Source: a virus. Taken from it: a DNA stretch of 49,664 bases. Numbering within the stretch: the stretch's first letter is position 1; each line of letters begins with the position of its first letter. The notes below the pieces were generated by a model, which ran no database searches, had not been told where the DNA came from, and saw nothing but the letters and a program-made list of their open reading frames with translations. Location: positions 1 to 49,664 of IMG/VR virus record IMGVR_UViG_3300009285_001796. One strand, given 5' to 3'. Both the position numbers and the translations under genes were made by a program. Below, in pieces: positions 7,737 to 34,400 of this stretch.

Positions 7737-7747
7737 GGGGAGTGAGC

Positions 7748-13211: not shown

Positions 13212-13222
13212 GCGAGGTAGCC

Positions 13223-15142
13223 ATGATTCAGAGAAAAGAAAACTGCCTCGCCATCAACTTTGCCTGCCCTTCGGATGTGGTAGTGGGTCAGCCGATGCTC
13301 CTTGATTCCAGCGCGAACCTGACCGTCAAGGCGATAGATGCAGACGCATCCATTCTCCTTGTCGGGTCGGTTGACGTGCATCAGGGAAGTGATCTGTTTG
13401 CCACTATCGCGACGAGGTTCCGGGAAAGGCGAGACGACCGGGAGGCAGCGGAAGCGGTGTCACTCGGCGCCTACGTCTATGATGCGTCAGGCAAGGCAGT
13501 TGCATACACAAAGGACGAATTTGTCGGCGTTACTGGCACCGGCACCGGGCCTTTCTTAGTCACGGTCGCGGCCGCGGGGTCTTGCACCGGGACGGAAGCC
13601 GGGCCGGTTTCCATTGCCGACGCGATCAACAACCTACTGAAAGTCAAAGTCGGGAGCGCGGACCCTCAGACCATAGCCCTGACACCGGGAGCGGCCCGCA
13701 CGATAGCCGAGATCCAAAACGACATCAATGACGTGGCAGTCGGGTTTACCGCTGGCGTTGATGGAAGCGGTTATCTGGTCCTGACTTCGGACGCTGTTAC
13801 GGATGCTCTCGAAGTCCAGGCCGTGACCGGAGATTGCTATACCACTGTCGGTCTGACCGCCGCGGTCTATGCGATCACGGTTGCCGCGGGCGGGACAGTT
13901 ACCTGCACAAACCACGGCGCTTTGACGTTTGCCGCTGGCACCAAGGTACTGAAACTGCATGTCGGCTCCGGTGCCAGTCAAACGGTGACTTTCGCTGAGG
14001 AGGAGTTAGCTGCAAGTGCCATAGCCACAGCGATCAACGATGCAACCGACAATATCCTCGCGGAAGTTGTTGATACCGATTACGTCAAAATCTCGGCCTA
14101 TGCGACATACGACAGCCTGACCATAGAGACTAGTGGAAGCACCGCTTTGACCGTCTTGGGACTGACAGGCGGTGTTACTCACGCGATTACAGCCGCGGCC
14201 GGTGGGACGCACACCGGAACTGAGGATGCGGCGCAGTTCATCGCTGACGCGGTGAATAACAAACTAAAGCTCCTCGTCACCGGGGGGAGTTCCGAGACGG
14301 TCACGCTGACAGTCGGGGCGGCTCGCACCATCGACCAGATATTCGCTGAGATCAATAGCGGCACGACTGGACTCACGGCCTCAAAACAGGCTGTCACCGG
14401 ATACCTGGTGCTGGCCGCTGACGCCATTGATAGCGATCTCACCGTCGAGGCCATTGTGAATGATGCCCATGCCGCACTCGGGCTCGTGGCCGATGAATAT
14501 GCCCACACCGAGCAGCACAACCAGGTCAAGGTCACGGTTGGTTCTGGCGACCCTCAGACTTTCACTCTCACGTCCGGATCGAGGACTATCACTCAAATCG
14601 TGACGGATTTTTCGGCAGCGACGGGCTTTTCGGCTTCGGCCTCGACGGGACATCTACGATTGGCAACCGATGACCTTGCAGACGCCTTGATCATTGGGAC
14701 TGTTTCGGGAGATGCCTATGATCTCCTCGGGCTTACGGCCGGAACCTATGACGAGATTTGGAGCCACAATCCGGCATCCATCGCCGGTCTGATTATCAAG
14801 TTACCGGACCCATGTGCAGTCATCGGCACGGTGAGCGGTCTTTTCGATATCGCAAACGGTGTGAACGATGCACTCAGCATCGTGATAGGGGCTGGCGAAA
14901 GTCAGGTCTTCGACCTTACGACCGCGGACGGCCAGACCGCCAATGACATCTGCGACAAGATCAATGACACAGCCACGGATTTCACGGCAGTCCGAGCCCC
15001 AGGTGGATACGTGAAGTTGTTGGTGGATGCTCCGTTCAACGATATCGAGATCGAAGAAGTCGCTAACAGCGCTTATGCAACGCTCGGCTTCACGCCCGCG
15101 GTCACAGCAGCGCCGATGATCATCAACACGCTCGAAAAATAA
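13223..15142 (+). CDS. Capsid decoration protein with five inserted IN-like beta modules
   Basis: 639 residues. Residues 1-~97 (VHQGSDLFATI, TRFRERRDDR, YVYDASGK) and ~514-524 (SHNPASIAGLII), plus the last residues (INTLEK), match the 123-residue neighbour. Between them sit four ~80-residue modules (~136-216, 240-315, 345-426, 432-509). A fifth (~546-625) is inserted near the C-terminus. Each has a VGSG..QT..LT hairpin, a helix ending in IN, a GYL.L strand and a DAY..LGLT close, resembling flagellin hook IN motifs. It probably displays the modules on the head surface. Confidence 0.7.
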   Translation: MIQRKENCLAINFACPSDVVVGQPMLLDSSANLTVKAIDADASILLVGSVDVHQGSDLFATIATRFRERRDDREAAEAVSLGAYVYDASGKAVAYTKDEFVGVTGTGTGPFLVTVAAAGSCTGTEAGPVSIADAINNLLKVKVGSADPQTIALTPGAARTIAEIQNDINDVAVGFTAGVDGSGYLVLTSDAVTDALEVQAVTGDCYTTVGLTAAVYAITVAAGGTVTCTNHGALTFAAGTKVLKLHVGSGASQTVTFAEEELAASAIATAINDATDNILAEVVDTDYVKISAYATYDSLTIETSGSTALTVLGLTGGVTHAITAAAGGTHTGTEDAAQFIADAVNNKLKLLVTGGSSETVTLTVGAARTIDQIFAEINSGTTGLTASKQAVTGYLVLAADAIDSDLTVEAIVNDAHAALGLVADEYAHTEQHNQVKVTVGSGDPQTFTLTSGSRTITQIVTDFSAATGFSASASTGHLRLATDDLADALIIGTVSGDAYDLLGLTAGTYDEIWSHNPASIAGLIIKLPDPCAVIGTVSGLFDIANGVNDALSIVIGAGESQVFDLTTADGQTANDICDKINDTATDFTAVRAPGGYVKLLVDAPFNDIEIEEVANSAYATLGFTPAVTAAPMIINTLEK

Positions 15143-15165
15143 ACCTGTGAAGGGAGATATAGGAA

Positions 15166-16290
15166 ATGAGCGGAGAACTTGGACTGTTTGACAATTTCAG
15201 AGAAGTGGTATTCGACCCGCTGCAAGCTTTCCTTATTGGAAGCGAAACGCGGCCGGGTCGTGAAGCCGATCTTGAGACCTTTTTACAGAAATATGCGCCG
15301 AACCCGTTGAAGAAAGGCACATGTGGTCTGACCAATGCCGCAGGTAACGCCCCTTTGACGCTGAACGATCTCTTTCAGGATCTTGGGCAGGACCCTCGCC
15401 ACATGACCCTGAACAACCTCGTTTCAATCAGCGGCGACGTTCGTTATCTGGCTCCCGCGCTCGTCAGGGACTTCATCGTTGAGGGTCTGGAAAGCAACGC
15501 CAGATACCGCGATCTCATCAATGCGTCCTTGCCGAGTACTTTAACGGTGACGAGCCCCTGGATTCAGTATCTCGACGCAAACCCGCAGCCCATTGGTGAA
15601 GCCGAGCGTGTCCCCATGTCCAAGATCACCTGGGGCGAAAAGACGGTAAGGATAACCAAAAAGGCTATTGGGCTGGAGACCACTGACGAAATCGTCATGG
15701 CCTGCCCGCTCAATCTCTTGGGTCAGTACCTGGCAGAAGTGGGCATCGAGCTTTCTGACACGTTGTTTACTAATGGCGTGACTTGTCTGATCAACGGCGA
15801 CCAGGCAGGCGGCGCGGACACCGCTGCCATTATAGGCGTCACCACTCAGAATGCTCTCGTCTACAAGGACCTTCTGCGTGTATTTTCCCGCGGTGCGCGA
15901 ATCAACGTCAATTACGTCAACATGCTCACCAACGAAGAGGAATCCAACAACATCCTGGATATGGATGTGTTCAAGACACAGCAGGGCCTGGGTGGAACAA
16001 TGATCAATGTCGATACCAAAAGGGTCGTTCCTTCCAACCTGCGCCATCGCATATCCGAGCAGTTCACCGACGATCAGGTCATGTTTTTCGACACTCGGGC
16101 CATGAACGAACTCGTTGGAAGACCTGTGATGATCGAGAACGAGCGGATCATCATGCGACAGATCAACGGAACTGCCGTTTCGATCATTCAAGGCTTTACC
16201 ACCATGAAGAGAGCCCATCGGGTCATCATCGACAAGTCCTTGGCGTGGTCTGGCAATAAGTTCCCGAGCTGGATGACTCCGCGCACGTAG
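15166..16290 (+). CDS. Major capsid protein (HK97 fold)
   Basis: 374 residues, ATG behind AAGGGAGATATAGGAA. The order is: an N-terminal arm region, LSTVTSP-like strand material (LPSTLTVTSPWIQYL), the E-loop-like WGEKTVRITKKAIGLETTDE, a spine helix around LLGQYLAEVGIELSDTL, a P-domain segment (YKDLLRVFSRGARINV), and a C-terminal A-domain with VGRPVMIENERIIMRQING. It is the main shell subunit, and position after the decoration pair is standard. A lysine for HK97-style crosslinking cannot be assigned. Confidence 0.82.
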   Translation: MSGELGLFDNFREVVFDPLQAFLIGSETRPGREADLETFLQKYAPNPLKKGTCGLTNAAGNAPLTLNDLFQDLGQDPRHMTLNNLVSISGDVRYLAPALVRDFIVEGLESNARYRDLINASLPSTLTVTSPWIQYLDANPQPIGEAERVPMSKITWGEKTVRITKKAIGLETTDEIVMACPLNLLGQYLAEVGIELSDTLFTNGVTCLINGDQAGGADTAAIIGVTTQNALVYKDLLRVFSRGARINVNYVNMLTNEEESNNILDMDVFKTQQGLGGTMINVDTKRVVPSNLRHRISEQFTDDQVMFFDTRAMNELVGRPVMIENERIIMRQINGTAVSIIQGFTTMKRAHRVIIDKSLAWSGNKFPSWMTPRT

Positions 16291-16304
16291 TAAGGAGGGC
16301 TCTC

Positions 16305-16685
16305 TTGAAACGGATAAAGCTTAAAGACCCGTCCGGGATGTTCCGAGATCCCGCGACGGGTCAAACAGTCATCAAGGGCGAAGAGGCAGACTTGATTGAG
16401 CCTGTTGGTAGGCTCACTCAGGATTGGTTGAATGCCGGTGGGTTGCTCCTCGTGAACCCAGACAAAAAACCACTGGCACCCAAGCTGCCTCCAGCGGAGG
16501 ACGGAAACGTGACAGACGAGGGTTCTGCTCTCCTTGACTCGGATGTCACGGCTTCCCCTCCGCCTCCACAAGCACCAGAGGCAAAGTCGGAAGAGAAGAA
16601 ACCGGGAAGGTTAAGCGGGATGCTGAGAAGGAAGAAAGCCCCGGCGAAGAAAGCCCCGGCGAAGAAATCCGCGGCGAAGAAATGA
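16305..16685 (+). CDS. Head protein with lysine/alanine/proline-rich histone-like tail
   Basis: 126 residues from TTG 16305, with AAGGAGG 7 nt upstream. Residues 1-~65 form a small folded domain (KLKDPSGMFRDPATGQTVIKG..). Residues ~75-98 are a Pro/Glu linker. The last ~25 residues repeat KKAPAKKAPAKK-type units as in histone H1-like tails. Such a tail would bind DNA or the negatively charged head interior. It sits between the capsid protein and the connector genes, so a head-completion or DNA-contacting role is plausible but inferred. Confidence 0.6.
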   Translation: MKRIKLKDPSGMFRDPATGQTVIKGEEADLIEPVGRLTQDWLNAGGLLLVNPDKKPLAPKLPPAEDGNVTDEGSALLDSDVTASPPPPQAPEAKSEEKKPGRLSGMLRRKKAPAKKAPAKKSAAKK

Positions 16686-16694
16686 CGGTGAAGC

Positions 16695-17105
16695 ATGGCT
16701 GTTGACATTCTCGTTCTGGTGAAAGTGCATATCAAGCTTCCGTTGGAACTCGATTCAACGCTGGAAGCGGACTTGCCAATATTCATCAACAGCCAAATGG
16801 CTCAACAGGGCTATGACGAGGATACGATGGATGACAAGGAGCGCAACTATGTTGCCGCTCTGACACTTGAATCTTTGATCCCTCGCATACTCGGCGTTTT
16901 CAGTATGGAAGTCCAGGAGGTCCGGGAAGGGCCGCAGAACACGCGGATGCCAAACCGGACTGAGTTCATGCGGGTACTGCAAAAGGCAATCGACAACTTG
17001 AAACAGTCAGCAGGGAAAGGTTCCGGCCTCATCGCTGATGCGGATGCGACTAGCGGCGCTGCTTGGCCTGGGGTCGGTCTAGCCAAGTGGGGCAGCCCAT
17101 TATGA
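16695..17105 (+). CDS. Head-tail connector-region protein, unknown family
   Basis: 136 residues. It is mostly helical with acidic N-terminal segment (LEADLPIFINSQMAQQGYDEDTM), a middle helix (LTLESLIPRILGVFSMEVQEV) and a Gly/Ala-rich end. No motif is recognised. It lies first in an ATGA-coupled run of connector genes, where adaptor proteins that bind the portal are normally encoded. It overlaps the next gene by 4 nt. Confidence 0.55.
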   Translation: MAVDILVLVKVHIKLPLELDSTLEADLPIFINSQMAQQGYDEDTMDDKERNYVAALTLESLIPRILGVFSMEVQEVREGPQNTRMPNRTEFMRVLQKAIDNLKQSAGKGSGLIADADATSGAAWPGVGLAKWGSPL

Positions 17106-17530
17106 ATGATAGCGTGAAAGCTAGTAGGAATCGGGTTGTGGCGACAGGTTACGAGTTCATGAAATCCGGCGACATCTGGATCTATGTTGCCCCTGACGGC
17201 ACGGAATACAGCATTTGCACCGTGGATTGGTCGAATGCTCAAGCAAGAGCCGAGGGGTTGGAGATTTTTGGAGCCGGCGTTGCAGACCAGGAAGAACGGA
17301 TACTCGTTTTCCTCAAGTCTTATTTGGAAGCGGCTGGCGTTACGAAGTTCGATCCTGCAGGGGGATATTTCAAGTGCGCTGGTGTGCGTTACGACTTCCA
17401 GGCGGACAGGCCGATCATTGTTCATGCAGGTCCATCAGACGATACCAGCAATTTGATTTGGTTCACGGTGCGGAAGGCCGTCGAGTTGGAACACACTGTT
17501 TCCGGTTCAATAGGATTCGATCTGACATGA
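17102..17530 (+). CDS. Connector/neck protein, unknown family
   Basis: 142 residues from ATG 17102 (ATGA overlap with the upstream stop; an earlier start would overlap further without a ribosome site). It starts with a helix-rich segment, then DIWIYVAPDGTEYSICTVDW and AGVRYDFQADRPIIVHAG, a mixed alpha/beta layout. Position between the adaptor and the gp10-like gene suggests a stopper or neck component. I see no diagnostic motif. Confidence 0.5.
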   Translation: MNDSVKASRNRVVATGYEFMKSGDIWIYVAPDGTEYSICTVDWSNAQARAEGLEIFGAGVADQEERILVFLKSYLEAAGVTKFDPAGGYFKCAGVRYDFQADRPIIVHAGPSDDTSNLIWFTVRKAVELEHTVSGSIGFDLT

Positions 17531-18156
17531 AGATGATGATTGAAATAGATCCTACGTTTAAGGACTTCATTAAACGCCTCCAGGGGTTCGAGCGCACGTT
17601 TATGGGCAATCTCAACGTGGCATCCAAGCAGGCAGGAAAACTCATTAAAGACACGATACCCAATGTCATGGCGGATACTGCTTGGTCTCCAAATGAGAAG
17701 GAATATCGCGACTGGAAGATATCGCACGGATTCGACAGCGAGCCGCTATTTCGCACGCACTTATTGGCAAACTCAATCTCTTTTCAACGCACGGCATTCG
17801 GGCCGCAAATGATTCGGGGCGAAGTCGGATGGTATCGGGGTATGCGTTACCCCGGAATACTCCAGGAACGCATGTATAGCGGTCGGGTGCCTCACCGCCG
17901 CAAGTCGGGCTTTCCAAAGTTGACCAAACGGCAACGAGAGTTCACCCGTATGCAGCTTCCACCGCCTAAATCGCTGTTCGATGTGAAGTACTTGGGTGAT
18001 GTTGCCCTTTGGAATGAATACGGCTCCAAAGGCAGGCCAGGCCGTGCATTCGTAAAAGCGACATTAGAGACAATAGCAAAGCCGGTTACGGAACTCTTCA
18101 GGACGGCTCTCGATAAATCGCTGCCTGTGAGCGGGATGGAAGAGGCACCTTTCTGA
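17527..18156 (+). CDS. HK97 gp10-like / tail completion (virion morphogenesis) protein
   Basis: 209 residues; ATG 17527 in ATGA overlap with the upstream stop. The N-terminal helix (FKDFIKRLQGFERTFM..VASKQAGKLIKDTI) and the C-terminal signature WNEYGSKGRPGRAFVKATLE followed by a helix are characteristic of the gp10-like tail-joining family. The usual ending is E.G....RPF....A. It joins the neck to the tail. The next gene starts in a TGATG overlap. Confidence 0.7.
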   Translation: MKMMIEIDPTFKDFIKRLQGFERTFMGNLNVASKQAGKLIKDTIPNVMADTAWSPNEKEYRDWKISHGFDSEPLFRTHLLANSISFQRTAFGPQMIRGEVGWYRGMRYPGILQERMYSGRVPHRRKSGFPKLTKRQREFTRMQLPPPKSLFDVKYLGDVALWNEYGSKGRPGRAFVKATLETIAKPVTELFRTALDKSLPVSGMEEAPF

Positions 18157-18755
18157 TGTTGGCATTGGTGGATACACATATCGCCACGCGACTTGGAAAG
18201 ATCACGCTGGCTAACGTTTCAATGAAACACTATGACTACGAGCCCGACCGCGAGAAGGGCACGACGCAATATCCGCATACGTGGTTCTCGCGCCTCTATT
18301 TTAAGGAGGATCTTTCCCGTGCCCGACCAAATCACGAGCAGTTTACGCCCAACGAGGAAACCGAAACGCTGATTTTTACTCCGGTGCAGGCGATGGGAGG
18401 ACCAACAGAGTTGACCGGACCTGTCAGTTGGACCCGGAAGCCCTATCCGACACCGATACAGGTCGTCTATGAGATCGGGGCCTCGGCTACCAACAAAACG
18501 CATTGGAATCAGTTGGAGCCGATGGTCATTCAAGCCTTTCCAGTAGGCTATCAGCCGAATATAAACAGTCAATATCCGCTGTTCATCAAGACGAGTCCAC
18601 ATAACTTGGATGAGCGAGACAAGCCGCTTTTCAGTATTTCGTTTCTCATGTGGGTCCACGACGTGTGGATAGACCGCTTCGAAGAATACACAAGTCCGTC
18701 AATCGTCGAGCCCCTGCTTGAATGGGGCACGTTCAATGAAGGTGACACTCATTAG
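18156..18755 (+). CDS. Tail terminator-like protein, tentative
   Basis: 199 residues, coupled to the gp10-like gene by TGATG. Contains strand-rich segments (ETETLIFTPVQAMG, PTPIQVVYEIGAS, FIKTSPHNLDERDKPLFSISFLMWVHDVWI). The place between the gp10-like protein and the sheath is where tail terminators that cap the tube lie in myoviruses. No specific family motif is seen, so the role is positional. Confidence 0.5.
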   Translation: MLALVDTHIATRLGKITLANVSMKHYDYEPDREKGTTQYPHTWFSRLYFKEDLSRARPNHEQFTPNEETETLIFTPVQAMGGPTELTGPVSWTRKPYPTPIQVVYEIGASATNKTHWNQLEPMVIQAFPVGYQPNINSQYPLFIKTSPHNLDERDKPLFSISFLMWVHDVWIDRFEEYTSPSIVEPLLEWGTFNEGDTH

Positions 18756-18772
18756 TAACGGGAGATCACAAC

Positions 18773-19078
18773 ATGGCTAGAAAACAATCTGACGAGACAA
18801 ATTACGAGGACATGGAGCCTGCTGTGGCTCCCGTGGTTACGGAATCAGCTTCGCCTCCTGTCCCCAGCGGGCCGGTGCCCGGAACGGTCTATGTCGAAAA
18901 CCTGATTGCAACGCCCTTCGGGACCACTCTCCTCGATGGGACCCACTTATCGGCGGGTCCCAAGGCCGGGGGACAAAACCGAAGCCGAGCCATTCCGAAG
19001 AAACTCCTGCCTCCCCATGTGCGGAGGCTCGAAAAGGCAGGCGTCATCAAAATAGTCGATGCTGCCGCGGGGAGGTAA
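18773..19078 (+). CDS. Small protein preceding the sheath, unknown function
   Basis: 101 residues with ATG behind GGGAG. N-terminal ~40 residues are Pro/Val/Ser-rich and likely disordered. A folded part GTVYVENLIATPFGTTLLDG follows, then a basic stretch (RSRAIPKKLLPPHVRRLEKAGVIKIVD). Small proteins of this kind are frequent immediately upstream of sheath genes in P2/Mu-type tails. Function not known. Confidence 0.55.
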   Translation: MARKQSDETNYEDMEPAVAPVVTESASPPVPSGPVPGTVYVENLIATPFGTTLLDGTHLSAGPKAGGQNRSRAIPKKLLPPHVRRLEKAGVIKIVDAAAGR

Positions 19079-19081
19079 CAA

Positions 19082-21349
19082 ATGACACTAGGAGCCGCAA
19101 GAGCAATCTTCACGATCAACGACCTTTCTCAGTTCGTGGACGAGCTGGTGAAGGGTTATGTTTTCATGGTCATTCAGGCCGAACGCGGACCCATAGGCGA
19201 GCCGCGGGTCATCTCCACCTTGGAGGAATACCGCAGGATCTACGGTGGCAAGGTTCCCTGGACCACAGACCCGCTTGTCTGCGAAATGGCACTACGCCAA
19301 GGCGGTCGCCTCATTCTGTGCAGGGCCGCTCACTACGACGACATTCACGATATCTCCACCATCACGGCACTGAAGTCGAATGTCTCCCTCGATGACAGAG
19401 GGGCCATTCCCTTGGCCGCTATGGTGACAGGTGCGGTCGGGCCGTTCACGCTCAGTCCTGCCAAGGCTGGAGCTGTGACGGGCGGCGAGGTCGGGCCGTT
19501 CCTTATCGTAACAGGCGCTAATGATGCTTTCAAGATCAAGGTGGGCACCCACGACGCGGAGACTGTAACTTTGACGCAGGGTTCGGCGCGAACTGCCCAG
19601 CAGATCGTTGACGACATAAATGCCGGGACGACCAATCTTACAGCCTCTATTTCGGACAACAAGGTCAAGATTACGGCCAATACCGTGACAGACGATCTGG
19701 AAATTCAGACCGTGGCGAATGACAGTTATTCCTCGCTGGGCTTTGTCGAGGGGACATTCGCGGCAGATGCAGGCACGGATGCTCTGGCTATCTCGGTGAA
19801 CGGAGGAGCCGACCAACCCTTCACATTGACCCCACTCTTGGGCGAAACCGGGAATTTCACCCTGACCGCTTCCCAAGTTGCCACACAGCTTGCCGCCCTG
19901 ACCGGAGCGAGGGCGAGCGTAGTTAACGGCGCAGTCCGTTTGACGACCACGGCAACCGGGGAGACAGCAACCATCCAGGTGAAAAGCACCGGGACGGCTC
20001 AGACTACGCTCGGTTTTGTAACTACGGAGCAGACAGGGGCCACAGGTTCATCTTTGCCTACCTTGAAATTCGAGGCTAAAGACCCCGGATTATGGGGCGA
20101 TTCTCTGAAGATTCAGATTTCGGATTCAAACCTCTTTCCGGGCATAGCTTTCAACGTGAAAGTCATCTACGAAAGGGACGGCACGCTCACTGAGGACTAT
20201 GCCGACCTGGTGATGGACTCTACGAGCCTGCGATATGCGCCGACTTACATCAGCGAGCGTTCCAGGCTCGTGGTGGTGACAGACCTCGATTCGGCCAATA
20301 CTGATCCTGCCAATATGCCCCTTGTGAATCTTTATGGCACTCCGCTGACCGGCGGAGATGACGGCGGGGACATGGAAGAAGCAGATTGGATCGGGGATGC
20401 AACGGCGCAGACGGGCATGTATTCGGCTGATCGCAATTTTTACATGTCTATGGATTTGATGATTCCAGGGACCACTTCGGTCACGGTTTACCAAGCCATG
20501 ATTGCCTACTGTGAGTCCCGCGGCGACATGATCAGTTATGGTCAGGTGCCTTTCGGCATGGAACCGGAGGAAGTGGTTGATTGGCGGCTTGGAAACGCGC
20601 CGTGGAGTCATCCGGCCTTTAACAGTCACCGATTTTCGATCTTCTTCGGTTTCCCAAAGGTCTATGACGACATGGACGATTCCAGGAAGTTCGTTTCATG
20701 TCTCGGGCACCTGGCCTCTTGTCTGGCAAAGACGGACAACAACTATGGGTATCACTACTCGCCGGTCGGTCCTCGACGGGGCAAAGTCACTCTCATGGAG
20801 GACATCGACTTTAACATTCAGGCATACAGGAGCACAGGGTACGCGGACCTGTTTGCGGAGAATGGCATCAATTACCTGTTCATTAGCCACATGCCTGGCA
20901 TCGAGGGCGGGATGTTTTGGGAGCAGCGCACTAGTTGGCGACCGGCTTCCGCGCTCCGGGAGTTGAATGTCGTCCGGTTCATAACTGCGATGAACAGGAT
21001 GCTGATGCCGGTGCTCAGAACCTTCATTTTTGAACCCAACCATCCGGTCACATGGCGTGAAATCTGGCGGGTCCTGAAGCCTGCTTTTGACGATTGGAAA
21101 AGCCGCTATGCGATCTATGACTACGCTCTTCAGTGTGACGAGGATGCCTATTTCGACGGCGGGGTTCTCAAGAACGCCAAACTCAACAGCGGCCTGGATA
21201 TTGACAGGGGCATCTACCATTGTCGGGCGCTCATCCAGCCGACCAGGACAATCTACTATCTCGAATTTGAGCTCGGCCTGATCAGAACAGGCGAGGCATT
21301 CGAGAATTACCTCGAGCTTAAAGAACTTCCCGGATGGATCGTGACATAA
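19082..21349 (+). CDS. Contractile tail sheath protein with two inserted IN-like modules
   Basis: 755 residues, longer than a simple P2-type sheath (about 400). The N-terminus is sheath-like (MVIQAERGPIGEPRVIST..EEYRRIYGG). The C-terminal ~420 residues carry the usual sheath core, including LRELNVVRFITAMNRMLM, FIFEPNHPVTWREIWRV and GLDIDRGIYHCRALIQPT. Residues ~146-222 and ~232-312 are two modules of the type found in the decoration protein (VGTHDAETVTLTQGSARTAQQIVDDIN, then NDSYSSLGF). They lie in the variable outer domain of the sheath, so would be exposed on the tail surface. Confidence 0.85.
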   Translation: MTLGAARAIFTINDLSQFVDELVKGYVFMVIQAERGPIGEPRVISTLEEYRRIYGGKVPWTTDPLVCEMALRQGGRLILCRAAHYDDIHDISTITALKSNVSLDDRGAIPLAAMVTGAVGPFTLSPAKAGAVTGGEVGPFLIVTGANDAFKIKVGTHDAETVTLTQGSARTAQQIVDDINAGTTNLTASISDNKVKITANTVTDDLEIQTVANDSYSSLGFVEGTFAADAGTDALAISVNGGADQPFTLTPLLGETGNFTLTASQVATQLAALTGARASVVNGAVRLTTTATGETATIQVKSTGTAQTTLGFVTTEQTGATGSSLPTLKFEAKDPGLWGDSLKIQISDSNLFPGIAFNVKVIYERDGTLTEDYADLVMDSTSLRYAPTYISERSRLVVVTDLDSANTDPANMPLVNLYGTPLTGGDDGGDMEEADWIGDATAQTGMYSADRNFYMSMDLMIPGTTSVTVYQAMIAYCESRGDMISYGQVPFGMEPEEVVDWRLGNAPWSHPAFNSHRFSIFFGFPKVYDDMDDSRKFVSCLGHLASCLAKTDNNYGYHYSPVGPRRGKVTLMEDIDFNIQAYRSTGYADLFAENGINYLFISHMPGIEGGMFWEQRTSWRPASALRELNVVRFITAMNRMLMPVLRTFIFEPNHPVTWREIWRVLKPAFDDWKSRYAIYDYALQCDEDAYFDGGVLKNAKLNSGLDIDRGIYHCRALIQPTRTIYYLEFELGLIRTGEAFENYLELKELPGWIVT

Positions 21350-21362
21350 GGAGGCTTAAACG

Positions 21363-21836
21363 ATGACCATTGAAGCCAGTAGTATAAATCGACTCAAGGA
21401 ATTCAAATTCCGGGTCGAGATCAACGGGGTTCCTTCGGCGTTGGTCCAGGAATTTGACCCTGGCAAAAGGAGTCACGGCGTTACTGAACATGCGGGAGCG
21501 GGCCAGAACCACGCCTCCAAAGAAGCCGGGATGATCAAATACGGGAACGCACGAATCAAAAACGTAGTCCCCATTGATGGTCCGGGGCAGGATATGTGGG
21601 TAAAGTTCCTGAATTCTGCACAAAACCCCTTGACTGGCAATGGCGGAAACAAGGCCGATTACACCTTCGTCCTGAGTTTCTTTGAGTTGCTTCCCGCTGG
21701 CAATCCTGTCCGCACTTGGCATTACTACAATGCTTGGGTAGTGGACTATAGCCCTGGGAATCGATCGGGCCTGAGTGAAAACAAGGACGTGATCGAGGAA
21801 GTCGAGATAGCTTTCGACCGACGCGATCCCGCATAG
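21363..21836 (+). CDS. Tail tube protein (T4 gp19-like)
   Basis: 157 residues behind TAAGGAGGCTTAAACG. The pattern KFRVEINGVPSALVQEFDPG, then HASKEAGMIKYGNARIKNVV, WVKFLNSAQ and RTWHYYNAWVVDYSPGNRS ending in EVEIAFDRRDP is that of gp19-like tube proteins. These form the inner tube of contractile tails. Immediately downstream of the sheath, as usual. Confidence 0.85.
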   Translation: MTIEASSINRLKEFKFRVEINGVPSALVQEFDPGKRSHGVTEHAGAGQNHASKEAGMIKYGNARIKNVVPIDGPGQDMWVKFLNSAQNPLTGNGGNKADYTFVLSFFELLPAGNPVRTWHYYNAWVVDYSPGNRSGLSENKDVIEEVEIAFDRRDPA

Positions 21837-21843
21837 GTGATTT

Positions 21844-22560: not shown

Positions 22561-22581
22561 CCAGAGAGTTGGGCGTCCCCC
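22539..22581 (+). promoter_or_regulatory. Programmed -1 ribosomal frameshift signal
   Basis: The heptamer T TTT TTA (22539-22545) is in register with frame 0: codons TTT at 22540 and TTA at 22543. Six nucleotides later GGGGGA (22552-22557) can pair with TCCCCC (22576-22581) around an 18-nt loop that has its own small AAC/GTT stem. This is the textbook X XXY YYZ, spacer and stem-loop plan. The -1 frame is open from here to 22796. Confidence 0.8.
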
Positions 22582-22796: not shown

Positions 22797-22798
22797 TA

Positions 22799-25252: not shown

Positions 25253-25689
25253 CCGACGCTGACATTCCGGTTCAGAGCGGATATTTGATCCCGGAAACCG
25301 GGGGCATGTTCGGTTTTCAGTGGAATCCCCATAAGACTGTAGGGGACAAAAGAATCCCGTGGAACAAACTCAAGGTCGCCGGCAGGGAACAGCCCATCTT
25401 GCAATATGGATGTGCAGAGCCTCGCTTGTTTCATATCAAGTTTGCTCTTTCCAGGGCAGACCGCGGCCCTGACTATGTCAAGGGAGCCATTGAGCAATTG
25501 TACGGCATGTGCGCCTGCACAGCGGGCGGTAGTGTGAAACGGCCCCCGCGGGTGCGCTTCATCATGGGCGATACCATTAATGTCAACTGCGTCATATCGA
25601 ACCTGAAGATCGATTATGGCCCCTTGTGGACACCAGGACTTGTGCCCTGCGAGGCATATATCGATATGGTTCTGACGGAATACAAGTAA
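25249..25689 (+). CDS. CIS-tube-like / LysM-linked baseplate protein
   Basis: 146 residues. GFQWNPHKT..KRIPWNKLKVAGREQPILQYG, the strand LFHIKFALSRAD, PPRVRFIMGDTINVNCVISNLKIDYG and a terminal EAYIDMVLTEYK match the layout of contractile-injection-system tube/collar proteins (PVC7-like) and gp53-like partners. These sit at the tube-baseplate junction. TAATG couples it to the hub gene. Confidence 0.6.
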   Translation: MTDADIPVQSGYLIPETGGMFGFQWNPHKTVGDKRIPWNKLKVAGREQPILQYGCAEPRLFHIKFALSRADRGPDYVKGAIEQLYGMCACTAGGSVKRPPRVRFIMGDTINVNCVISNLKIDYGPLWTPGLVPCEAYIDMVLTEYK

Positions 25690-26870
25690 TGCTGCTTCCA
25701 GGCAACCAAAAAACTTATGACCCTGACTTCGTGGTTACAATCGGAGGTCGCGACGTGACCAAGATCACGAAGCGATGGAGCCTGGAGGACGTGGAGGACG
25801 GCATTTCTTCTCTGACCGTCACCCTCGCAAATCCTGACGGCAAGTATTCCGGCGTGTTCAAGACCGAGCAGGAGATCAGCCTCAATTTTGGCTACCACAA
25901 GGGTGAAGTGTCTCCAACGATTCGAATGAAGATCAAAGACAAGAGGGAAGATTTTCCAACCAAGCAGGGGCCGACTATCAGGCTCGTGGCTTTGGATTGC
26001 ACAGAGCGCCTGGTCGGAGTGACCGCGGCCGGTAATTCCGACATTAACGACGTCAAAGAAATTCTAAAATCCATCATCGAGGGCCACAAGATGACCCCTG
26101 ATGTGAATGTCAAACAGCCTGAGAAAATGCCCCCGGTAGTGAGTGTTCACAATCAGACGGGATATGCGGCCATCCGCTGGCTGATGGGTATGACCGAGTG
26201 TGGAGAGAAGCAAAAGAGCGACGGGGAGGATCCCATAAAGGGGCAACCGGAGTTTAATTTCGGGAAGCACTTCCCAAATGCGGAGATCGTGAACGGCGAC
26301 CGTGCGATCATGTCGATGATTGACGCTGGACTAAAGTCCATCGGGGACATTCGTATCAACAATCGACGCAACCGGGCCGGGACAACTACCATAGTCGGAT
26401 TTCTTGAAGTAGTCGGCCAGCCGATGCTTCAGGCGAAGAAATGCCTCACCGTCCAAAACGTCGGCCCGGAAGCATCCGGGAAATGGTACGTCAAGCGGCT
26501 CGTCCAGGAATGGGATGTGGGGCATGGATACCGGACTATCTCCAATCTTCTGCGGCCGACATTGGGGCAGGATGGCAAGGCTATTGATCAGCCGGTTGTC
26601 CTTTATGCGGACATCTACAAGAAGGACACGGTTTACGTGGGATGCCGCAAGATCAATTCCGAATCTCAAGCCACCTTCACCTATGGCACAGGGGAGAACG
26701 TCATGCACTTCTGGTGGGGAATAAAACTCCAACGAGGCAGGGGCGGCGGCGAAATCGCCAAGGCAAAGGGATGGGCAATCAATAATTGGGGCCAGATTCA
26801 GAAGTCTGAGGCAAAGAAAGACGGTTCTTACAATTCGTATCCGCCCTCGATGTCGGGGATCATGGATTAG
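25689..26870 (+). CDS. Baseplate hub protein (gpD / gp27-like)
   Basis: 393 residues from ATG 25689 (TAATG). It begins PDFVVTIGGRDVTKITKRWS and contains DGISSLTVTLANPDGKYSG, which is the start of phage late-control D / gp27-like domains. The middle has a DVKEILKSIIEGHKM..TGYAAIRWLMGM helix pair, and KWYVKRLVQEWDVGHGYRTISNLL closes the beta domain. The trimeric hub connects the tube to the spike. Confidence 0.75.
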   Translation: MLLPGNQKTYDPDFVVTIGGRDVTKITKRWSLEDVEDGISSLTVTLANPDGKYSGVFKTEQEISLNFGYHKGEVSPTIRMKIKDKREDFPTKQGPTIRLVALDCTERLVGVTAAGNSDINDVKEILKSIIEGHKMTPDVNVKQPEKMPPVVSVHNQTGYAAIRWLMGMTECGEKQKSDGEDPIKGQPEFNFGKHFPNAEIVNGDRAIMSMIDAGLKSIGDIRINNRRNRAGTTTIVGFLEVVGQPMLQAKKCLTVQNVGPEASGKWYVKRLVQEWDVGHGYRTISNLLRPTLGQDGKAIDQPVVLYADIYKKDTVYVGCRKINSESQATFTYGTGENVMHFWWGIKLQRGRGGGEIAKAKGWAINNWGQIQKSEAKKDGSYNSYPPSMSGIMD

Positions 26871-26875
26871 GCAAT

Positions 26876-27907
26876 ATGGCAGGTGTGGATTCAAAAGTTA
26901 CGATTCCGGCAGAGATGCAGCACCAGCAGCAAGCGGCGACGCTGCACCTTGGCGTGGTCCGCGATGTGAAAGATCCGGAAGGCCGTAACCGCGTGAAGGT
27001 GGAATGTCCCTCAATCAACCATACTGGTACTGGCAACTGGCTAAACTGGTGTGAAGTGGTGGGCCTGCCAGTCGGCTGCGGCCCCAATAGCGGCGACTTC
27101 GGATTCTGGTGGCCTATGGTCCCAGGTCAGGCCGTGGCCGTGAGTTTTTGGGATAGTGACTACATTGAGCCACAATGCTGGCCCGGACCTGCTCCGGCGG
27201 CGAAGCCTGAACCGAAAAACGCCCTGATACCGTGTGAAGCCAAAACCATTGGAGATCAGGACGTGAGGAAAGGCACACGCATACGGGAACTCAAGACCGA
27301 GGCAGGCGCTACCATCTTCTTCGACGACAACGGCAAACAGGAATGCCAGTTCATCGTTGATTGGGTCGGCAGCGGTTGGTTCTCGATTTGCCCGGGCAAA
27401 AAAGAAGACGCACAGGAGAAACAGGGGGAGGGGAGTCAATACCGCCAGGGAGAGACACGCGGATCCAAAACCATCATGGCTCAGACCGCCAAACTCCCGG
27501 AAGAGATACTCAAAGACGACATGCAAATTACGGGCCACATGGACTTGAACAGCCAGGGCTTCGCCCAGGTCGCACAGAGCAAGGGCGGCGTGGTCGTCTA
27601 TTGGTCCGGTAAGAAGGAAAAAGGCGAGATCAAGATCGGTCCTTACTTGATTCTCGATGCTCCCAGCGCCCTCGCTCTCCTTGGTGTCGGAGAAACGCAG
27701 ATATGGGCTGACGGTAAGAAGGGCGCAATCTACACGACCCGACAGATCATTCAAGAGCAACCCCCGATTGATGTGCTTCCTCTCTTTAAGTCTATTCTGG
27801 AAACGGTGCAGGGCAATTTCGGAAAATATAGCAGCGGCGGTTCGTCTCCGAAAGTCTCTCATGGAACGCAAGAATCCAGCAGCGAGGGGAATGGCGAGCA
27901 AGCATGA
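26876..27907 (+). CDS. Baseplate spike, gpV/gp5 OB-fold type
   Basis: 343 residues. LHLGVVRDVKDPEGRNRVKVECP, followed by NWCEVVGLPVGCG and FWWPMVPGQAVAVSFWDSDYIEPQCWPG, is a clear phage_base_V OB-fold. The remainder has a strand/repeat region (TRIRELKTEAGATIFFDDNG) typical of spike needles. The C-terminus is Ser/Gly-rich. No lysozyme domain. It pierces the envelope after sheath contraction. Confidence 0.82.
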   Translation: MAGVDSKVTIPAEMQHQQQAATLHLGVVRDVKDPEGRNRVKVECPSINHTGTGNWLNWCEVVGLPVGCGPNSGDFGFWWPMVPGQAVAVSFWDSDYIEPQCWPGPAPAAKPEPKNALIPCEAKTIGDQDVRKGTRIRELKTEAGATIFFDDNGKQECQFIVDWVGSGWFSICPGKKEDAQEKQGEGSQYRQGETRGSKTIMAQTAKLPEEILKDDMQITGHMDLNSQGFAQVAQSKGGVVVYWSGKKEKGEIKIGPYLILDAPSALALLGVGETQIWADGKKGAIYTTRQIIQEQPPIDVLPLFKSILETVQGNFGKYSSGGSSPKVSHGTQESSSEGNGEQA

Positions 27908-28767
27908 GAACCTACCCCATATACGGCAGAGGCACAGCCTTTCCTTTTCGGGCAAACCCCGCTACGGGCGGCGTGCAGGTCACGGAGGGCCTTCGAGATC
28001 CCCGGTCGGTGTCCCTGCAATACCTCAACGAGTCCTGGACCATTCGGGAGAATACCGATTTCCCCGCGAACCACATCGCAGAAGCCATTGCTCACATTCT
28101 TCTGACCCATCAAGGAGAACACGACACTCTCCCGGAATTTGGATCTCGCATACAGGAAATCCTGTTCGAGCCCAACTCAAGCGAAACGTGGCCGGTCCTG
28201 AAGCATTTCTTTTTTGAATCAACTATCCGGTGGGAAAAGCGGGCGCGGTTCCCTGAAAACGGCGGGATGGAGTTCAAACCTTCCGGGTATGGCATCGACC
28301 AGGGCCAATTACCGGCTCTAGCCTATGTCGAGTTTATCCTCGCTCAAATCGTCGGGAACCTCGTCGCTCCATTCGTGGAACCTCGCCAAGCCAGAGCACA
28401 GGAATATCCTGTGGCCGCGGTCGACGCGAGCAGACACGACTATCAGAGCCGTTATTTCAATATTCGACAATCGGAATATCAAGGCATCACGCATGATCGG
28501 TTCCGCCGGTCAACCTATCTGCCGCCGAACTATGACGACAAGTTTTACGAGATCAATCACGGCGATACCTGGCTTCTGATTTCCTGGAAACTCTATGGCG
28601 ACATTCGATACTGGCCTTATCTGGCGCAAATGTGGGTCCAGGATGCCGCGGAAGCGGGCATGAGCCGACACAACGCGGACCCTTCGGAGGAGCCTCCGGT
28701 CGGCACGCTGATACGAGTGCCTTCGCAGGCCCGGCTCCTGACGGAAGTGGCAACCCTACGGAATTAA
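27904..28767 (+). CDS. Baseplate wedge gp25/W domain fused to LysM-like domain
   Basis: 287 residues; ATGA-coupled. Residues ~30-115 (NESWTIRENTDFPANHIAEAIAHILLTHQGEHDTLPEFGSRIQEILFEP) are a GPW/gp25 domain, with the typical LLT..GE....P.FGS. Residues ~215-280 (KFYEINHGDTWLLISWKLYGDIRYWPYLAQ.. PVGTLIRVPS) form a LysM/gp53-like domain. The two functions are separate proteins in T4 (gp25, gp53); here they are one chain. Confidence 0.78.
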   Translation: MRTYPIYGRGTAFPFRANPATGGVQVTEGLRDPRSVSLQYLNESWTIRENTDFPANHIAEAIAHILLTHQGEHDTLPEFGSRIQEILFEPNSSETWPVLKHFFFESTIRWEKRARFPENGGMEFKPSGYGIDQGQLPALAYVEFILAQIVGNLVAPFVEPRQARAQEYPVAAVDASRHDYQSRYFNIRQSEYQGITHDRFRRSTYLPPNYDDKFYEINHGDTWLLISWKLYGDIRYWPYLAQMWVQDAAEAGMSRHNADPSEEPPVGTLIRVPSQARLLTEVATLRN

Positions 28768-28768
28768 G

Positions 28769-30190
28769 ATGAGCGAACTTGACTACAACTTTTCAGGACG
28801 TGACTACACGGCAAGATTTGAGGCGCTTATTACACGACTCAGAGAGGAAGTGCCCCAACTCACAGACCTGAACCATTCGGATGCAGGAATAAGCATTCTG
28901 CGGCTTCTCGCGCGTGAGTCCGACCAACTGGCTTTCTATATTGACGAGGCTTTTCGTGAGGGCTATGTTGAATTGGCTCGCTTTATGCAGAGTCTCATTG
29001 ATATTGCCAAAACCGTTGATATTCTGCCCAAGATCACAAGTTCAGCGCAAAACACCTTGACGCTGACTCGCAAGCCGAATTTTAGCGATCAGCTTCTCAT
29101 TCCCAGGTTTTCCAGTTTCACCAGGCCCGATGGGGTGACTTATTTGGTCGATCAGGACGTGACTTTGCCTGTTGATGAGGAAAGCATTGACGCAGAGGTG
29201 ACACAGGGCACGCTCGTCACCCTATCTCTCGAACCGGGAGATTTCGAAATATCCGAGATCACGGGGAGGGCTCAATACAATCTCGGTGCCAACGTCGCGG
29301 CCGGCACGGTCGCGATATGGCATGGAGAGACCCCGACATATTGGACTGAAATTGATAGCTTCTGGAGAAGCCTTTCGACTGATTACCATTTCCGCCTGGA
29401 ATTGTTCGCGGAACCTGTGAACAACGAGTTTAACACCGTCTATTTGGTCCTGGGAGACGGAGTTGAGGGGAAACAGCTTCCTCCTTCAACCCTTTCGGTC
29501 CAGTTCCTCAGGACGGCAGCGGAAAACGGCAATGCTGGTTACGGAATGATTACCGGCGTGCCTTCAGACCTGATCGAGAAAATTACAGCGACCAATGGGG
29601 ACCCTGCTACCGGAGGGGGTCCGGTCGAATCCATCTCCGATTTCCGACGCAGGATCCCGAGAGTGGTTCAGACCCAGCGCAGGGGTTTGACCACGACAGA
29701 CTATGAAGCTCTGATCGAGAGCATTGCCGGCGTGAAGCACTGTCAGGCACTTGATCGTAATTACGGCAGCCAGTATCCGCACCTTTACATGAAACTCTTT
29801 ATCGTTTCAGAGGGCGGTGGCCCCATGTCCGATCAGTTGGAAATTTTGATAACAGCCAAGTGCTGTGATTGGGGCCACCTGGGAGCATGGACGGGAAGGT
29901 ATATCATTTCGGATGCGGTCGAGGTTCCCGTCAATATTACGTGCAGAATAGGAATTGTGGCCGGTTATTCCTCACAGGCGGTGATTTCAGCGGTCCAGGC
30001 TGCATTGACAAGTCTTCTCTCCACTAACAGTCAGATTATCGCCGGGACCCTCTCCTATTCGGATATCCATTCGACGGCCCTTTCCGTTGCAGGCGTTTCC
30101 TGGGCCGATATTGATCTCCCCTTGGCCGATGTTTCAGCCGGCAATGGGGAAATACTCACGGCGGGGACCATGACCGTCACGGCAGCATAA
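28769..30190 (+). CDS. Baseplate J-like wedge protein (gp6-like)
   Basis: 473 residues. DYTARFEALITRLREEVPQLTDLNHSDAGISILRLLARESDQLAFYIDEAFREGY is the hallmark N-terminus of J/gp6 proteins. FRRRIPRVVQTQRRGLTTTDYEALIESIAGV also matches the conserved baseplate-J core. C-terminal strands (VEVPVNITCRIGIVAGYSS) complete it. J forms the wedge ring around the hub. Two bases separate it from the upstream stop. Confidence 0.85.
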   Translation: MSELDYNFSGRDYTARFEALITRLREEVPQLTDLNHSDAGISILRLLARESDQLAFYIDEAFREGYVELARFMQSLIDIAKTVDILPKITSSAQNTLTLTRKPNFSDQLLIPRFSSFTRPDGVTYLVDQDVTLPVDEESIDAEVTQGTLVTLSLEPGDFEISEITGRAQYNLGANVAAGTVAIWHGETPTYWTEIDSFWRSLSTDYHFRLELFAEPVNNEFNTVYLVLGDGVEGKQLPPSTLSVQFLRTAAENGNAGYGMITGVPSDLIEKITATNGDPATGGGPVESISDFRRRIPRVVQTQRRGLTTTDYEALIESIAGVKHCQALDRNYGSQYPHLYMKLFIVSEGGGPMSDQLEILITAKCCDWGHLGAWTGRYIISDAVEVPVNITCRIGIVAGYSSQAVISAVQAALTSLLSTNSQIIAGTLSYSDIHSTALSVAGVSWADIDLPLADVSAGNGEILTAGTMTVTAA

Positions 30191-30192
30191 CT

Positions 30193-31416
30193 ATGCCGAG
30201 AAAAGCACTCGTAGAGAGAGTTCCGAAGATTTGGCAACGCCTCGATACCGATGGCGTGCTCGATGGTTTTCTCGGCGTGGTCGATTCGGAGTTCCTTTAC
30301 ATCCATGACAAGGCCGGCGAAGTATTCGACCTCCGGAACGTGGACACGGTGCCGGACAGATATCTTTCTCTCCTGGCCCCCCTGGTCGGCCACACTTGGC
30401 GCGGTACAAAAGATCGACCCTGGAATCGCCGACGCATCAGGAACGCAATCAGGAGGCATTCCTATAAGGGCACAGCGGTCAGGCTTGCGGATACGGTTGC
30501 GGATAATGGCACGAGCCCTCATGAGGTCACGGATCAGGCATCAAAGCTCCTGGTGTGGGGAGTGCAGGGCCGATGGGGCTGCGATGACGCGGCGCTTCAG
30601 GCCGCGGACTACTGGCATGATGGGGCATTTGTGCTTGAGGTCCGGGATGCGCTTGAAGACATTGCCGGCTTGAAAGAGGATCTGAGGGAGACCACGGCGG
30701 GCGGTGAGTGCTGGTATCTGAGGCTCGTCTCCGACATTGAACTGTTTGCCGAAATGGCCGATTTGCTGACTATGGACAATGCCGGGATTACGTGGGACCG
30801 CGACGATATCACGGTCGGCTATCCGCCTTTCCCGCCGGGAACGCTCGCTCGAATGGCCGGCTGGCTGACTATGGACAATGCCGGGATTACGTGGGACCGC
30901 GACGATATCACGGTCGGCTATCCGTTCATCAGTGCGGGGCCGTATTGGATCGGGCTTGGCAAAAGCTCGGCATGGGAGGATGAGGAGAACCCACCGGAAC
31001 CGGCGCCAGCGGATGAAACGCTGACCGAGCCGTTTCTTTATTTGCGTGCGGACAGGGCCTCGCTGTGTGAACCGGTTGATGAGATCCCGCCCGAGGAGGA
31101 TGGGATCATCATCGGGGACCAGGCTTACCAGTTTGTCAGTGACGAGGCGGGCATCGCGGACCCGGCCCGTTATCTGTATCTGGAAGTGAAATACGACACA
31201 TGGATAGGCCAGCCCGTGGGCGGTTTCCGGCAGATCGCGGCATTGTGGGGACTCCAGGCCATAGCGGGCTATACCCATTGGGATTGGTTGAGTCCCGCGA
31301 GAGTGGCAGATCCCGGATATGTCATGGGACTGGCAAACATGGCGGTGAAAGAGACGATTCTCGGGGAGCAACGAATACTACGGATTCTGGGCAAGATCGG
31401 ACAAGACACGATATAG
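30193..31416 (+). CDS. Tail protein I-like baseplate component with internal duplication
   Basis: 407 residues. VERVPKIWQRLDTDGVLDGFLGVVDSEF, LLAPLVGHTWRG and RNAIRRHSYKGTAVRL are typical of P2 I-like tail proteins that follow J. The centre carries two copies of a 33-residue unit (MADLLTMDN.. and MAGWLTMDN.., about residues 188-242) that are nearly identical in DNA. The C-terminus (YLEVKYDTWIGQPVGGFRQIAAL...) is unassigned. Confidence 0.72.
   Translation: MPRKALVERVPKIWQRLDTDGVLDGFLGVVDSEFLYIHDKAGEVFDLRNVDTVPDRYLSLLAPLVGHTWRGTKDRPWNRRRIRNAIRRHSYKGTAVRLADTVADNGTSPHEVTDQASKLLVWGVQGRWGCDDAALQAADYWHDGAFVLEVRDALEDIAGLKEDLRETTAGGECWYLRLVSDIELFAEMADLLTMDNAGITWDRDDITVGYPPFPPGTLARMAGWLTMDNAGITWDRDDITVGYPFISAGPYWIGLGKSSAWEDEENPPEPAPADETLTEPFLYLRADRASLCEPVDEIPPEEDGIIIGDQAYQFVSDEAGIADPARYLYLEVKYDTWIGQPVGGFRQIAALWGLQAIAGYTHWDWLSPARVADPGYVMGLANMAVKETILGEQRILRILGKIGQDTI
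30753..30924 (+). repeat. 99-bp-period direct repeat inside the I-like gene
   Basis: Two copies spaced by 99 bp. AATGGCCG begins each (30753, 30852), 4 bp differ, and then 61 bp are identical (30765-30825 and 30864-30924). The duplication is in frame and adds 33 residues. The DNA identity suggests a recent event. Confidence 0.9.
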
Positions 31417-31425
31417 GAGCGACGT

Positions 31426-34400
31426 ATGGGCAATTTGGTTGTTGAAGCACTACATAATTACAATGTCCGGGCTTTTGATAACCTGAATCCTCCGATTCTC
31501 CAAACACCGGAGATTGTGGGTGCTCCTGGAAGCGCCTCTTATTCCTACGTCGCGACTTTCACGACCATCGGCGGCGAGACCACGGCATCTGACGAAGTGG
31601 CAACAACCACGGCCGCTGAAGTGCTGAACGGCACCAATAAGGTCAAAGTCCAGCCGCAGACCATACCGACCGGCGCGAAGAAAATCCGGTTCTTCAAGAA
31701 GATCGGCCTCGTTTGGAATTTCATAGGTGAAGTGACTGTCGCGGTCGGGTACATCTACGACACTGGCCAAGCCGCAGACTCTCAGATTCATCCTCCCAGC
31801 GAGAACACGTCCGGCCGGCCGTACTGGTATGCTCTCCTCGTGCAACCGGGGCGCTACGCTCAACGCATGGAGATGTCCGACATGACGGCCATGATCCATC
31901 GTGCAATTCAGGACATCGCGGACACGATTCACAAGGACGGCGACGTTATCGAGGGCGGCAGCCCGGTGCATGTTTCGGGGACCACATGGTCATTCACAGC
32001 CGCAAAAATCTATGCAGACGGTTGCTATTTGAGAGTGCCCGCAGGCCAAGTGACTCTCGCCGGAACCGGGACGGAACGAGTGGGCGTGACGATTACGCCA
32101 GGGATCCTCACCTATGAGGATGACCCGATCATTCGGAACATTGATGAAGGGGTTTTTAATAGTCCCGCGTATAACGCACCAGGCGCGGACAGACTCACGT
32201 TTGACGTGGTGTGGGTAGTCGATGACCCGAACATGATCCCCATCCAAGATTTCGTTGATGGACAGCCCAAGACGAAGCAGTTCCTACCGGAACGCTCCAT
32301 GCAAGACATTGCCGCTGCGCGGAGACTCTATGACCTGGCTGGGTCCTATGTGACACGGAACTTCCCAATGGAAGTCGTGGCACACACAACAGATGCGACA
32401 AAATTGCTCCTGAAAGTCAACCCTGGAAAAGCCTACCCTATGGGGTTTGAAGTTGAGACCCTGGCCACGCAGTCGATACCGTTCAACAAAGCCCGCGATG
32501 TGATGTTCGTGAATAACTCGGGCGTGGATGGATTCAGCATTCCGGGCGGGTACGTGATTACCTCGAACCCGGAGAATTATGACGTTGACGGCCTGAAGGT
32601 CAGCCTCACAGTTGGTTCCGGGAATGCCCATGTGGTGACGCTCTCTGGTAGTGGCCAGACGGCCGCGCAGGTGGGCGCACAGATCGAGGCGTCGGTCAAT
32701 GCCTATCCCACAAATGGAACACTTGTGGAATGCACCGCGGCCGGCGGCATACTGAAAATCCAGGCAGTTGATGGCAAGAATCTGACCGTGAATAGCGTCT
32801 CCGATGACGCTTATACCATCCTCGGGATCTCAACAGGGGGCCATACTCCGGTCGGGACGCGGATCTATCCCATCAACGATGCCTACGTGAAGGACGTGTC
32901 AGACCTGAGTTACCGCACAGAGACGGTTGTGACGCTGACGCACAACGGCTCGACGCATATCGATGACCTTGGAGTCGAGAATGCGCTCGATATCCTTGGG
33001 GCCTCGACGCTGGCCGCGGACTGCCATGACGAGAAGTGGGATTTCCTGGACGGTGTGGATTTTGTGAGGGTGGGGAATACGATCTCTTTTGCGGGCATGG
33101 GCGGTGACGAGCCGAACGCGGGAGCGACCTATCGGGTGAAATGCGCTTATAACCGCAATGCCACAAAGGGTGCTCGCATTCTGGTAAGGGTCACAGACGC
33201 ACAGGTTGTCAAGGGCACGGTTGGCGGCACGGATAATCTCGTCTTTACCGGCGCCACGGTGACGAAAGTGCTGGACGGCAGCCCGGTTACGGGACTTTCC
33301 GGCTCGATCAGCGATGCAGTGAGCATTCTTCGTGTCAATGACACGCCCGGGCAAGGCGCGACCGAGTATTCGAGGTACGCTTTCCTGAAAAACTCCACTG
33401 CCCTCGCGCATGCCACTTCTCAAATAGACTGGTCCGGCGCAGGTGCGCCCAATACCGGAATAACCGGGCAACCACAAAATGCCGCGACTTACTATATCAC
33501 CTTGGAAGCGTGGTATCACGCGACAGAAGGAGATTATGTCGGCCCTGACTCCTTCGATATGTACGAGAGCATCGAGACCTTCGGGACCGACAACCTCCGC
33601 GACTGCACAGATTTCCGCACTACGGGTGTTTGGCCGGTTCCTGATGAGTCCCCGACGTTCGACTATAACTATTATTTGAGCCGGGTGGACAAGCTCGTCT
33701 TGACCGACACCGGCGATTTCCGCCTTGTGACCGGCTCGCCCGCCAGGGTGCCACCGGTTCCGTCAGAGCAAACAGGACTCCTATCACTGGCCATTGTCCG
33801 GATTGCGCCATACACCTACGGTCCTGGTGAAGCGCGGGTGACATCGCTGGAACCTTTGCGAATCACTCAGCAGGGGCTCCGTAATTTCGGGGACAGGATA
33901 GCCAGGCTCGAATACTGGAATGTGGTCAATACCCTCGAAAAGGAGGTTGAAGGGCATCAGGCAGCGGCTACGGCCAAGGGTTTATTCACTGACGCACTGA
34001 CCGGGTTCAACAGGATCGACACTGCCTTCGACAAGAACGGCGTGAAGCATACCGCCGCGGTGGATCGAATGTCAGGGACACTCCTCTTGCCGGCTACACG
34101 ACAGCCCAAATTACTCTCCGTGGACCTGGTGAACTCAACTCACGTCCGCAGGAATGGGAACATTTTGTGCCTGGACTATCAACCGGAAGTCTTTGACCAG
34201 CAATTGCAGGCGAGCATATGGGTGAGTTGCGCTCCAGATTTTGTTTATGAAAACTTCGTAGGTGATATGAACATCACTCCGTTTTCGTTAGCTTTTCTCG
34301 ACGAGACACAATTACCAGCTATAAATGTGGATTATGACAACAACCTCACTGGAGCCGCTACCGATGGGTCTGACCTAAACTCCACTATTTGGGGTGCGTG

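Follow-up and report, generated by a model that had tools for sequence, protein, structure and literature searches.

A FliD D3-like domain inserted into the predicted capsid decoration, tail sheath and DUF4815 baseplate-region proteins of a contractile-tailed phage

The virion genes of the window and their module copies

The stretch of DNA analyzed here (the window), an IMG/VR virus record of 49.7 kb, contains the genes for head, neck, tail and baseplate of a phage with a contractile tail. The original prediction singled out three of its open reading frames, encoding proteins of 639, 755 and 1626 aa, and all three are present as stated. The genes relevant to this work are as follows.

12840..13211 (about), + strand: module-free decoration/cement paralogue, 123 aa, directly upstream of the 639-aa protein
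13223..15142, + strand: module-bearing predicted decoration protein, 639 aa, between the gene in the scaffold/protease position and the major head protein
15166..16290, + strand: major head protein, without module (phrog_3922, 4.6e-24)
19082..21349, + strand: tail sheath protein, 755 aa (phrog_23, 5.9e-39)
31426..36306, + strand: DUF4815 baseplate-region protein, 1626 aa (PF16075, 6.6e-73; phrog_877, 1.6e-142)

The 1626-aa protein also matches the DUF4815 protein of PDB entry 9euf (2.9e-48). A repeated module had been described five times in the decoration protein, twice in the sheath and once in the baseplate protein, and we find the same counts, with boundaries that agree to within a few residues. 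The unit is somewhat longer than the ~80 residues described: at most insertion sites, the leading module follows an entry segment of ~20 residues, (T/S)G(T/S)E.GPF.I. The same segment is found ahead of the adaptor and head-protein copies of related phages.

13607..13867, + strand: module D1, decoration insertion site 1, residues about 131-213
13922..14173, + strand: module D2, decoration insertion site 1, residues about 236-316
14234..14497, + strand: module D3, decoration insertion site 1, residues about 340-423
14498..14746, + strand: module D4, decoration insertion site 1, residues about 426-506
14747..14827, + strand: decoration core strand SHNPASIAGLII, separating insertion sites 1 and 2, from the alignment with module-free paralogues
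14843..15100, + strand: module D5, decoration insertion site 2, residues about 543-625
19499..19756, + strand: module S1, sheath residues about 142-223, AlphaFold2 model with pLDDT 96.9
19754..20026, + strand: module S2, sheath residues about 227-314
32569..32838, + strand: module B1, residues about 383-470 of the 1626-aa protein, inserted relative to herellevirus DUF4815 homologues

In a blind test, an HMM trained on the five decoration units alone was run on the open reading frames of the window. It recovered S1 (8e-23), S2 (1e-5) and B1 (1.9e-7), and gave no further significant match in any of these frames. The scores of S1, S2 and B1 (81.7, 27.1 and 33.3 bits) lie far above the best of 1000 composition-preserving shuffles per unit (11.4, 8.1 and 9.1 bits, respectively), which excludes a chance or low-complexity resemblance. 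In blastp, the decoration protein matches the sheath at 1e-25 and the 1626-aa protein at 2e-6, and pairwise identity among the window modules is 22-46%. The HMM and the shuffles bear out the proposal of one module family common to the three proteins; at the level of sequence, the eight units are shown to be homologous copies of one domain.

A separate, second domain links residues 1515-1582 of the 1626-aa protein with two loci of relatives (L007:7722-8468 and L035:7902-8612). It is common to the C-terminus of the DUF4815 protein and a neck-region protein of the relatives (44-47% identity), and the window holds a single copy of it, with no other found.

The modules interrupt host proteins

The decoration protein has a cement-like core of ~123 residues, which the modules interrupt at two sites. 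The 123-aa paralogue is 67% identical to the decoration protein of a related locus, L007, and ~46% identical to the core of the 639-aa protein. In the alignment, the core shared by module-free and module-bearing proteins ends in ...(H)(D/N)PAAIAGL.I ... ETLE. In the window, four modules stand ahead of the HNPASIAGLII strand (site 1) and one behind it (site 2). Across relatives the number of modules in decoration proteins varies from 0 to 5: L031, L036 and L048 have a single module, located at site 1, the one module of L034 is at site 2, and in five genomes a module-free cement paralogue accompanies the loaded one. We considered whether L007 holds an empty orthologue of the 639-aa protein and rejected this, since in the core tree its protein groups with the module-free paralogue encoded in the window (89/97); L007 therefore lacks the loaded paralogue and does not represent its empty version.

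The assignment of the core as a capsid decoration protein comes from gene order and from weak matches in Pfam and Foldseek. PF09956 (Phage_cement_2) is found in the L007 orthologue only, with an E-value of 0.002 that is below the cut-off, and most Foldseek matches of the AlphaFold2 model of the 123-aa paralogue (pLDDT 71.7) are decoration, cement or head-fibre proteins, all at E >= 0.4. As a query on its own, the decoration protein found no relatives among viral contigs or phages.

Module-carrying sheaths occur in about thirteen distinct relatives, and the alignment-based sheath search found no relative in 84,980 bacterial and archaeal genomes. The sheaths of L050-L052, at 31% identity, have no recognisable module, and a shorter, unrelated-looking stretch fills the site. 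The profile finds no module in the DUF4815 homologues of three cultured phages (two herelleviruses and one Vibrio phage), and both herellevirus proteins are gapped at the module position. Every close relative found has the sheath pair and the DUF4815 module. The search of relatives for presence or absence of the insertions, suggested with the original prediction, thus turned up module-free homologues of both the decoration and the DUF4815 protein. Because these and the 31%-identity sheaths exist, the module regions are shown by alignment to be insertions into host proteins. The sheath gene of L043 (9986-12108) consists of two overlapping frames (323 + 450 aa) that break within the second module, as a result of either an assembly error or a frameshift.

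Further carriers and nested modules

In related phages the module is found in additional virion proteins. L027 and L029 (from the same phages as L039 and L047) carry it in the head-tail adaptor (phrog_477, 6.8e-13) and have a third sheath module at a new site, near window residue 430. In L036 it lies within the homologue of the neck/tail gene at 18156 of the window, and in L054 within a head protein that matches phrog_1623 (1.2e-38) in two stretches, the best of which ends just ahead of the module. The module is also present in L008, a different phage, within a protein that phrog_2839 identifies as a sheath. Decoration, sheath and DUF4815-type proteins all bear modules in the window and in G004, G006 and G012 (the 1637-aa carrier of G012 being placed as DUF4815-type by size and position), and adaptor, sheath and DUF4815 proteins do so in G003 and G005. 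Hence, the three-compartment spread, which had been called unusual, is so among sequenced phages, but is typical within this clade, where at least six genomes have it.

Three other loci gave observations of a similar kind. L011 has tandem DUF4815 paralogues of ~1690 aa each (4669-9756 and 10001-15070), both with the module. The 1693-aa sheath of L008 (9485-14563) probably contains another module, around residues 954-1170, which is split by a His-rich helical repeat, YHN..NATDLA. Upstream of its sheath gene, L055 encodes a 289-aa protein (4698-5564) with an N-terminal module and a weak second match.

The decoration arrays of L033 and L043 have the following order: two N-terminal halves, one full module and two C-terminal halves. 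In L045, and likewise in the sheath of L034, a complete second module interrupts another near its last helix. When the halves are joined in nested order, they score 66-90 bits, close to intact modules, against a model trained without these four loci; the joining order was the analyst's choice, and a single pairing was scored. Judged from sequence, modules thus appear to be nested within modules in four relatives. Alternatively, the pattern may reflect partial duplication of module halves.

History of the insertions

The module tree, built on 84 columns, is poorly resolved. The baseplate modules, the second sheath units, the modules of the third sheath site and the adaptor modules nevertheless each form one group (95-98%), and the adaptor modules lie inside those of the first sheath unit. 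Several decoration units of the window pair with the L035 unit at the matching position, and the location labels require 11 changes on the tree as opposed to a mean of 41 for shuffled labels. The module DNA contains no repeats beyond short chance matches and its G+C content is ordinary, which speaks against recent duplication or current mobility. The module had been described as mobile; this is supported over evolution, by extra carriers, variable copy number and nesting, but not for the present, given the missing DNA repeats and the clustering of positional orthologues.

These patterns fit a model in which insertion is old and happened repeatedly. The domain would have entered proteins of the virion exterior long ago and several times independently, the recipients being the cement protein (at two sites), the sheath and the DUF4815 protein, as well as the adaptor, neck/tail and head proteins of relatives. 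Afterwards the modules would mostly have been inherited where they stood.

Family and fold of the module

PF07196 (Flagellin_IN) matches the 639-aa protein with 24.5 bits (cut-off 22.7), best over residues 352-400; the sheath and the 1626-aa protein on their own have no match to it. When 34 units were scanned singly, PF07196 matched nine at E <= 0.5 (best 1.4e-6). A profile of the 34 units, run against PDB sequences, found the tail sheath of Vibrio phage XM1 first (7kh1, residues 123-202, 9e-7) and flagellins next (2.3e-5 and weaker).

An AlphaFold2 model computed from 67 aligned units (pLDDT 96.9, pTM 0.87) has the predicted order strand-strand-helix-strand-strand-strand-helix. Its Foldseek matches in the PDB are led by Vibrio flagellins, FliD and the XM1 and E217 sheaths, for example 9n8a FlaD (probability 1.00, query TM-score (TMq) 0.61) and 5h5v FliD (TMq 0.67). 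Overall, probabilities reach 1.00 and TMq spans 0.5-0.67, with E-values of 0.008-0.4 and none <= 0.001. In BFVD, the model is also similar to portions of 'putative minor capsid proteins' from the giant viruses Hokovirus and Klosneuvirus (A0A1V0SGP4 and A0A1V0SJI8; TMq 0.73 and 0.69, E about 0.01).

The eight units belong to the Flagellin_IN/FliD-D3-like family. The originally proposed kinship with the flagellin IN motif is therefore upheld by the above-cut-off PF07196 match, the flagellin profile matches and the flagellin and FliD structure matches. The Ig-like display domains named alongside it are not supported as relatives: no Ig, BIG or FN3 family matched any of the 34 units at E <= 0.5, and the predicted fold differs. 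We also rejected a carbohydrate-binding module, as the only match to such families among the 34 units was CBM_15 at chance level (E 0.087), and aromatic residues make up 5% of the module with none conserved.

A proposed display layer and its alternatives

We propose the following explanation. The unit would be a domain of ~80-100 residues with a beta-beta-alpha-beta-beta-beta-alpha fold, usable as a loop plug-in because its ends must be close together. As its locations suggest, such close-set ends would let it enter loops, its own included, while sparing the fold of the host protein. The modules would form an outward-facing, acidic display or spacer layer that alters the surface properties of the particle, either by weak, diverse contacts with the host or the medium or by shielding, rather than driving assembly or contraction. 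By analogy with solved relatives, the modules are probably surface exposed. The XM1 insertion domain interrupts the sheath NTD at a distance from the C-terminal domain, which is conserved (PMC10457771), and the lateral sheath domain of Pseudomonas phage Adele is reported to have no direct part in contraction (PMC12846349). Net charge is negative in 63 of the 67 modules (median -6). We regard an outward display or spacer role as the most likely one, and hold the explanation as a whole (a homologous FliD-D3-like plug-in domain, old insertions and an outward layer) with moderate confidence.

The main rival is a cement function, in which the modules clamp neighbouring capsid, sheath or baseplate subunits and lend mechanical or chemical stability. 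The FliD-like domain of the crAss001 auxiliary capsid protein gp36 does contact the MCP A-domain around each capsomer (PMC10172136), and a review of sheath proteins suggests that extra domains may stabilise the tail (PMC9230969). Furthermore, retention of the sheath pair and the DUF4815 module by all close relatives suggests more than a dispensable decoration. However, the best conserved positions, classified by residue type, are mostly glycines and hydrophobic core or helix-cap residues, and neither a conserved interface patch nor an aromatic or polar pocket was seen across the 67 modules. We favor display over pure cement because relatives differ in the number of decoration modules and a cement paralogue free of modules occurs alongside the loaded one; cement is possible, but rather unlikely.

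The same conserved positions argue against one conserved ligand pocket, and hence bear on the idea that the modules act as adhesins of low affinity, all for the same surface ligand, such as a glycan, mucin or exopolymer. The modules would be multivalent over the whole particle, and extra sheath domains have been proposed to be adhesive (PMC9230969). Yet a single ligand, as originally suggested, sits poorly with modules that are only 22-46% identical within one virion, acidic and poor in aromatics, and with carbohydrate-binding families that do not rise above chance. We consider such adhesins improbable. The presence of the modules in all close sheath and DUF4815 relatives could also mean that they are ordinary integral domains of each family, alike through a convergent beta-hairpin pattern. 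This is hardly credible in view of the cross-protein profile scores, the known module-free homologues, the shared entry motif and the independent carriers.

More tentatively than the display layer itself, we suggest that one promiscuous domain, able to insert into nearly any exposed virion protein and into itself, builds the outer layer of this clade from capsid to baseplate.

Relation to known systems

The fold has already been published for individual phage proteins, whereas its spread within one virion and its self-nesting look new; in the open-access literature searched, we found no earlier report directly on point for the module family or the nesting. That phages shuffle domains is well established (PMC10684548). 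Prior reports concern fold likeness protein by protein; here, sequence homologues occur in the head, neck, tail and baseplate of one phage group, in which loaded paralogues stand beside module-free ones. The natural series of 0 to 5 copies at several sites offers a means of probing the roles of accessory virion domains and the spread of domains among unrelated host folds. In addition, it identifies loops of cement and sheath proteins in which insertions have been tolerated during evolution.

Phage Ig-like display domains (Fraser et al. 2006, as cited in PMC10684548 and PMC9230969) are likewise described as promiscuous accessory domains on virion surface proteins, but their fold differs from that of the module. 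Flagellin_IN, FliD D2-D3 and the outer domains of flagellins share its fold class. The flagellin and FliD outer domains belong to a self-assembling filament, whereas the module carriers are phage virion proteins, and the PF07196 model covers 55 residues as compared to the 80-100 of the module, which ends in a conserved DAY..LGL helix.

The insertion domain of the XM1 sheath gp6 (7kh1) likewise lies in the N-terminal part of its sheath, and its authors considered it restricted to XM1 and, from a Dali search, similar to FliD D3 (PMC10457771). Contrary to the XM1-only description, a tblastn search finds similar stretches in 49 phage records. The module profile matches gp6 in the XM1 record at 4.9e-10. 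The modules of the XM1 and window sheaths are both in the N-terminal half, with flanking cores that align poorly, and by eye the XM1 module aligns best with S2. A scan of the whole XM1 record gives one copy, in the sheath only, as opposed to eight copies in three proteins of the window. The FD domain of crAss001 gp36 (PMC10172136) and the lateral sheath domain of Adele (PMC12846349) are further cases of a FliD/flagellin-like fold inserted into a capsid or sheath protein, and the Adele paper lists the fold in sheaths, nozzles, auxiliary capsid proteins, FliD and flagellin (PMC12846349). The crAss001 and Adele examples are single domains of separate phages related at the level of fold, whereas the modules of the window are related in sequence and are found in the head, tail and baseplate proteins of one genome.
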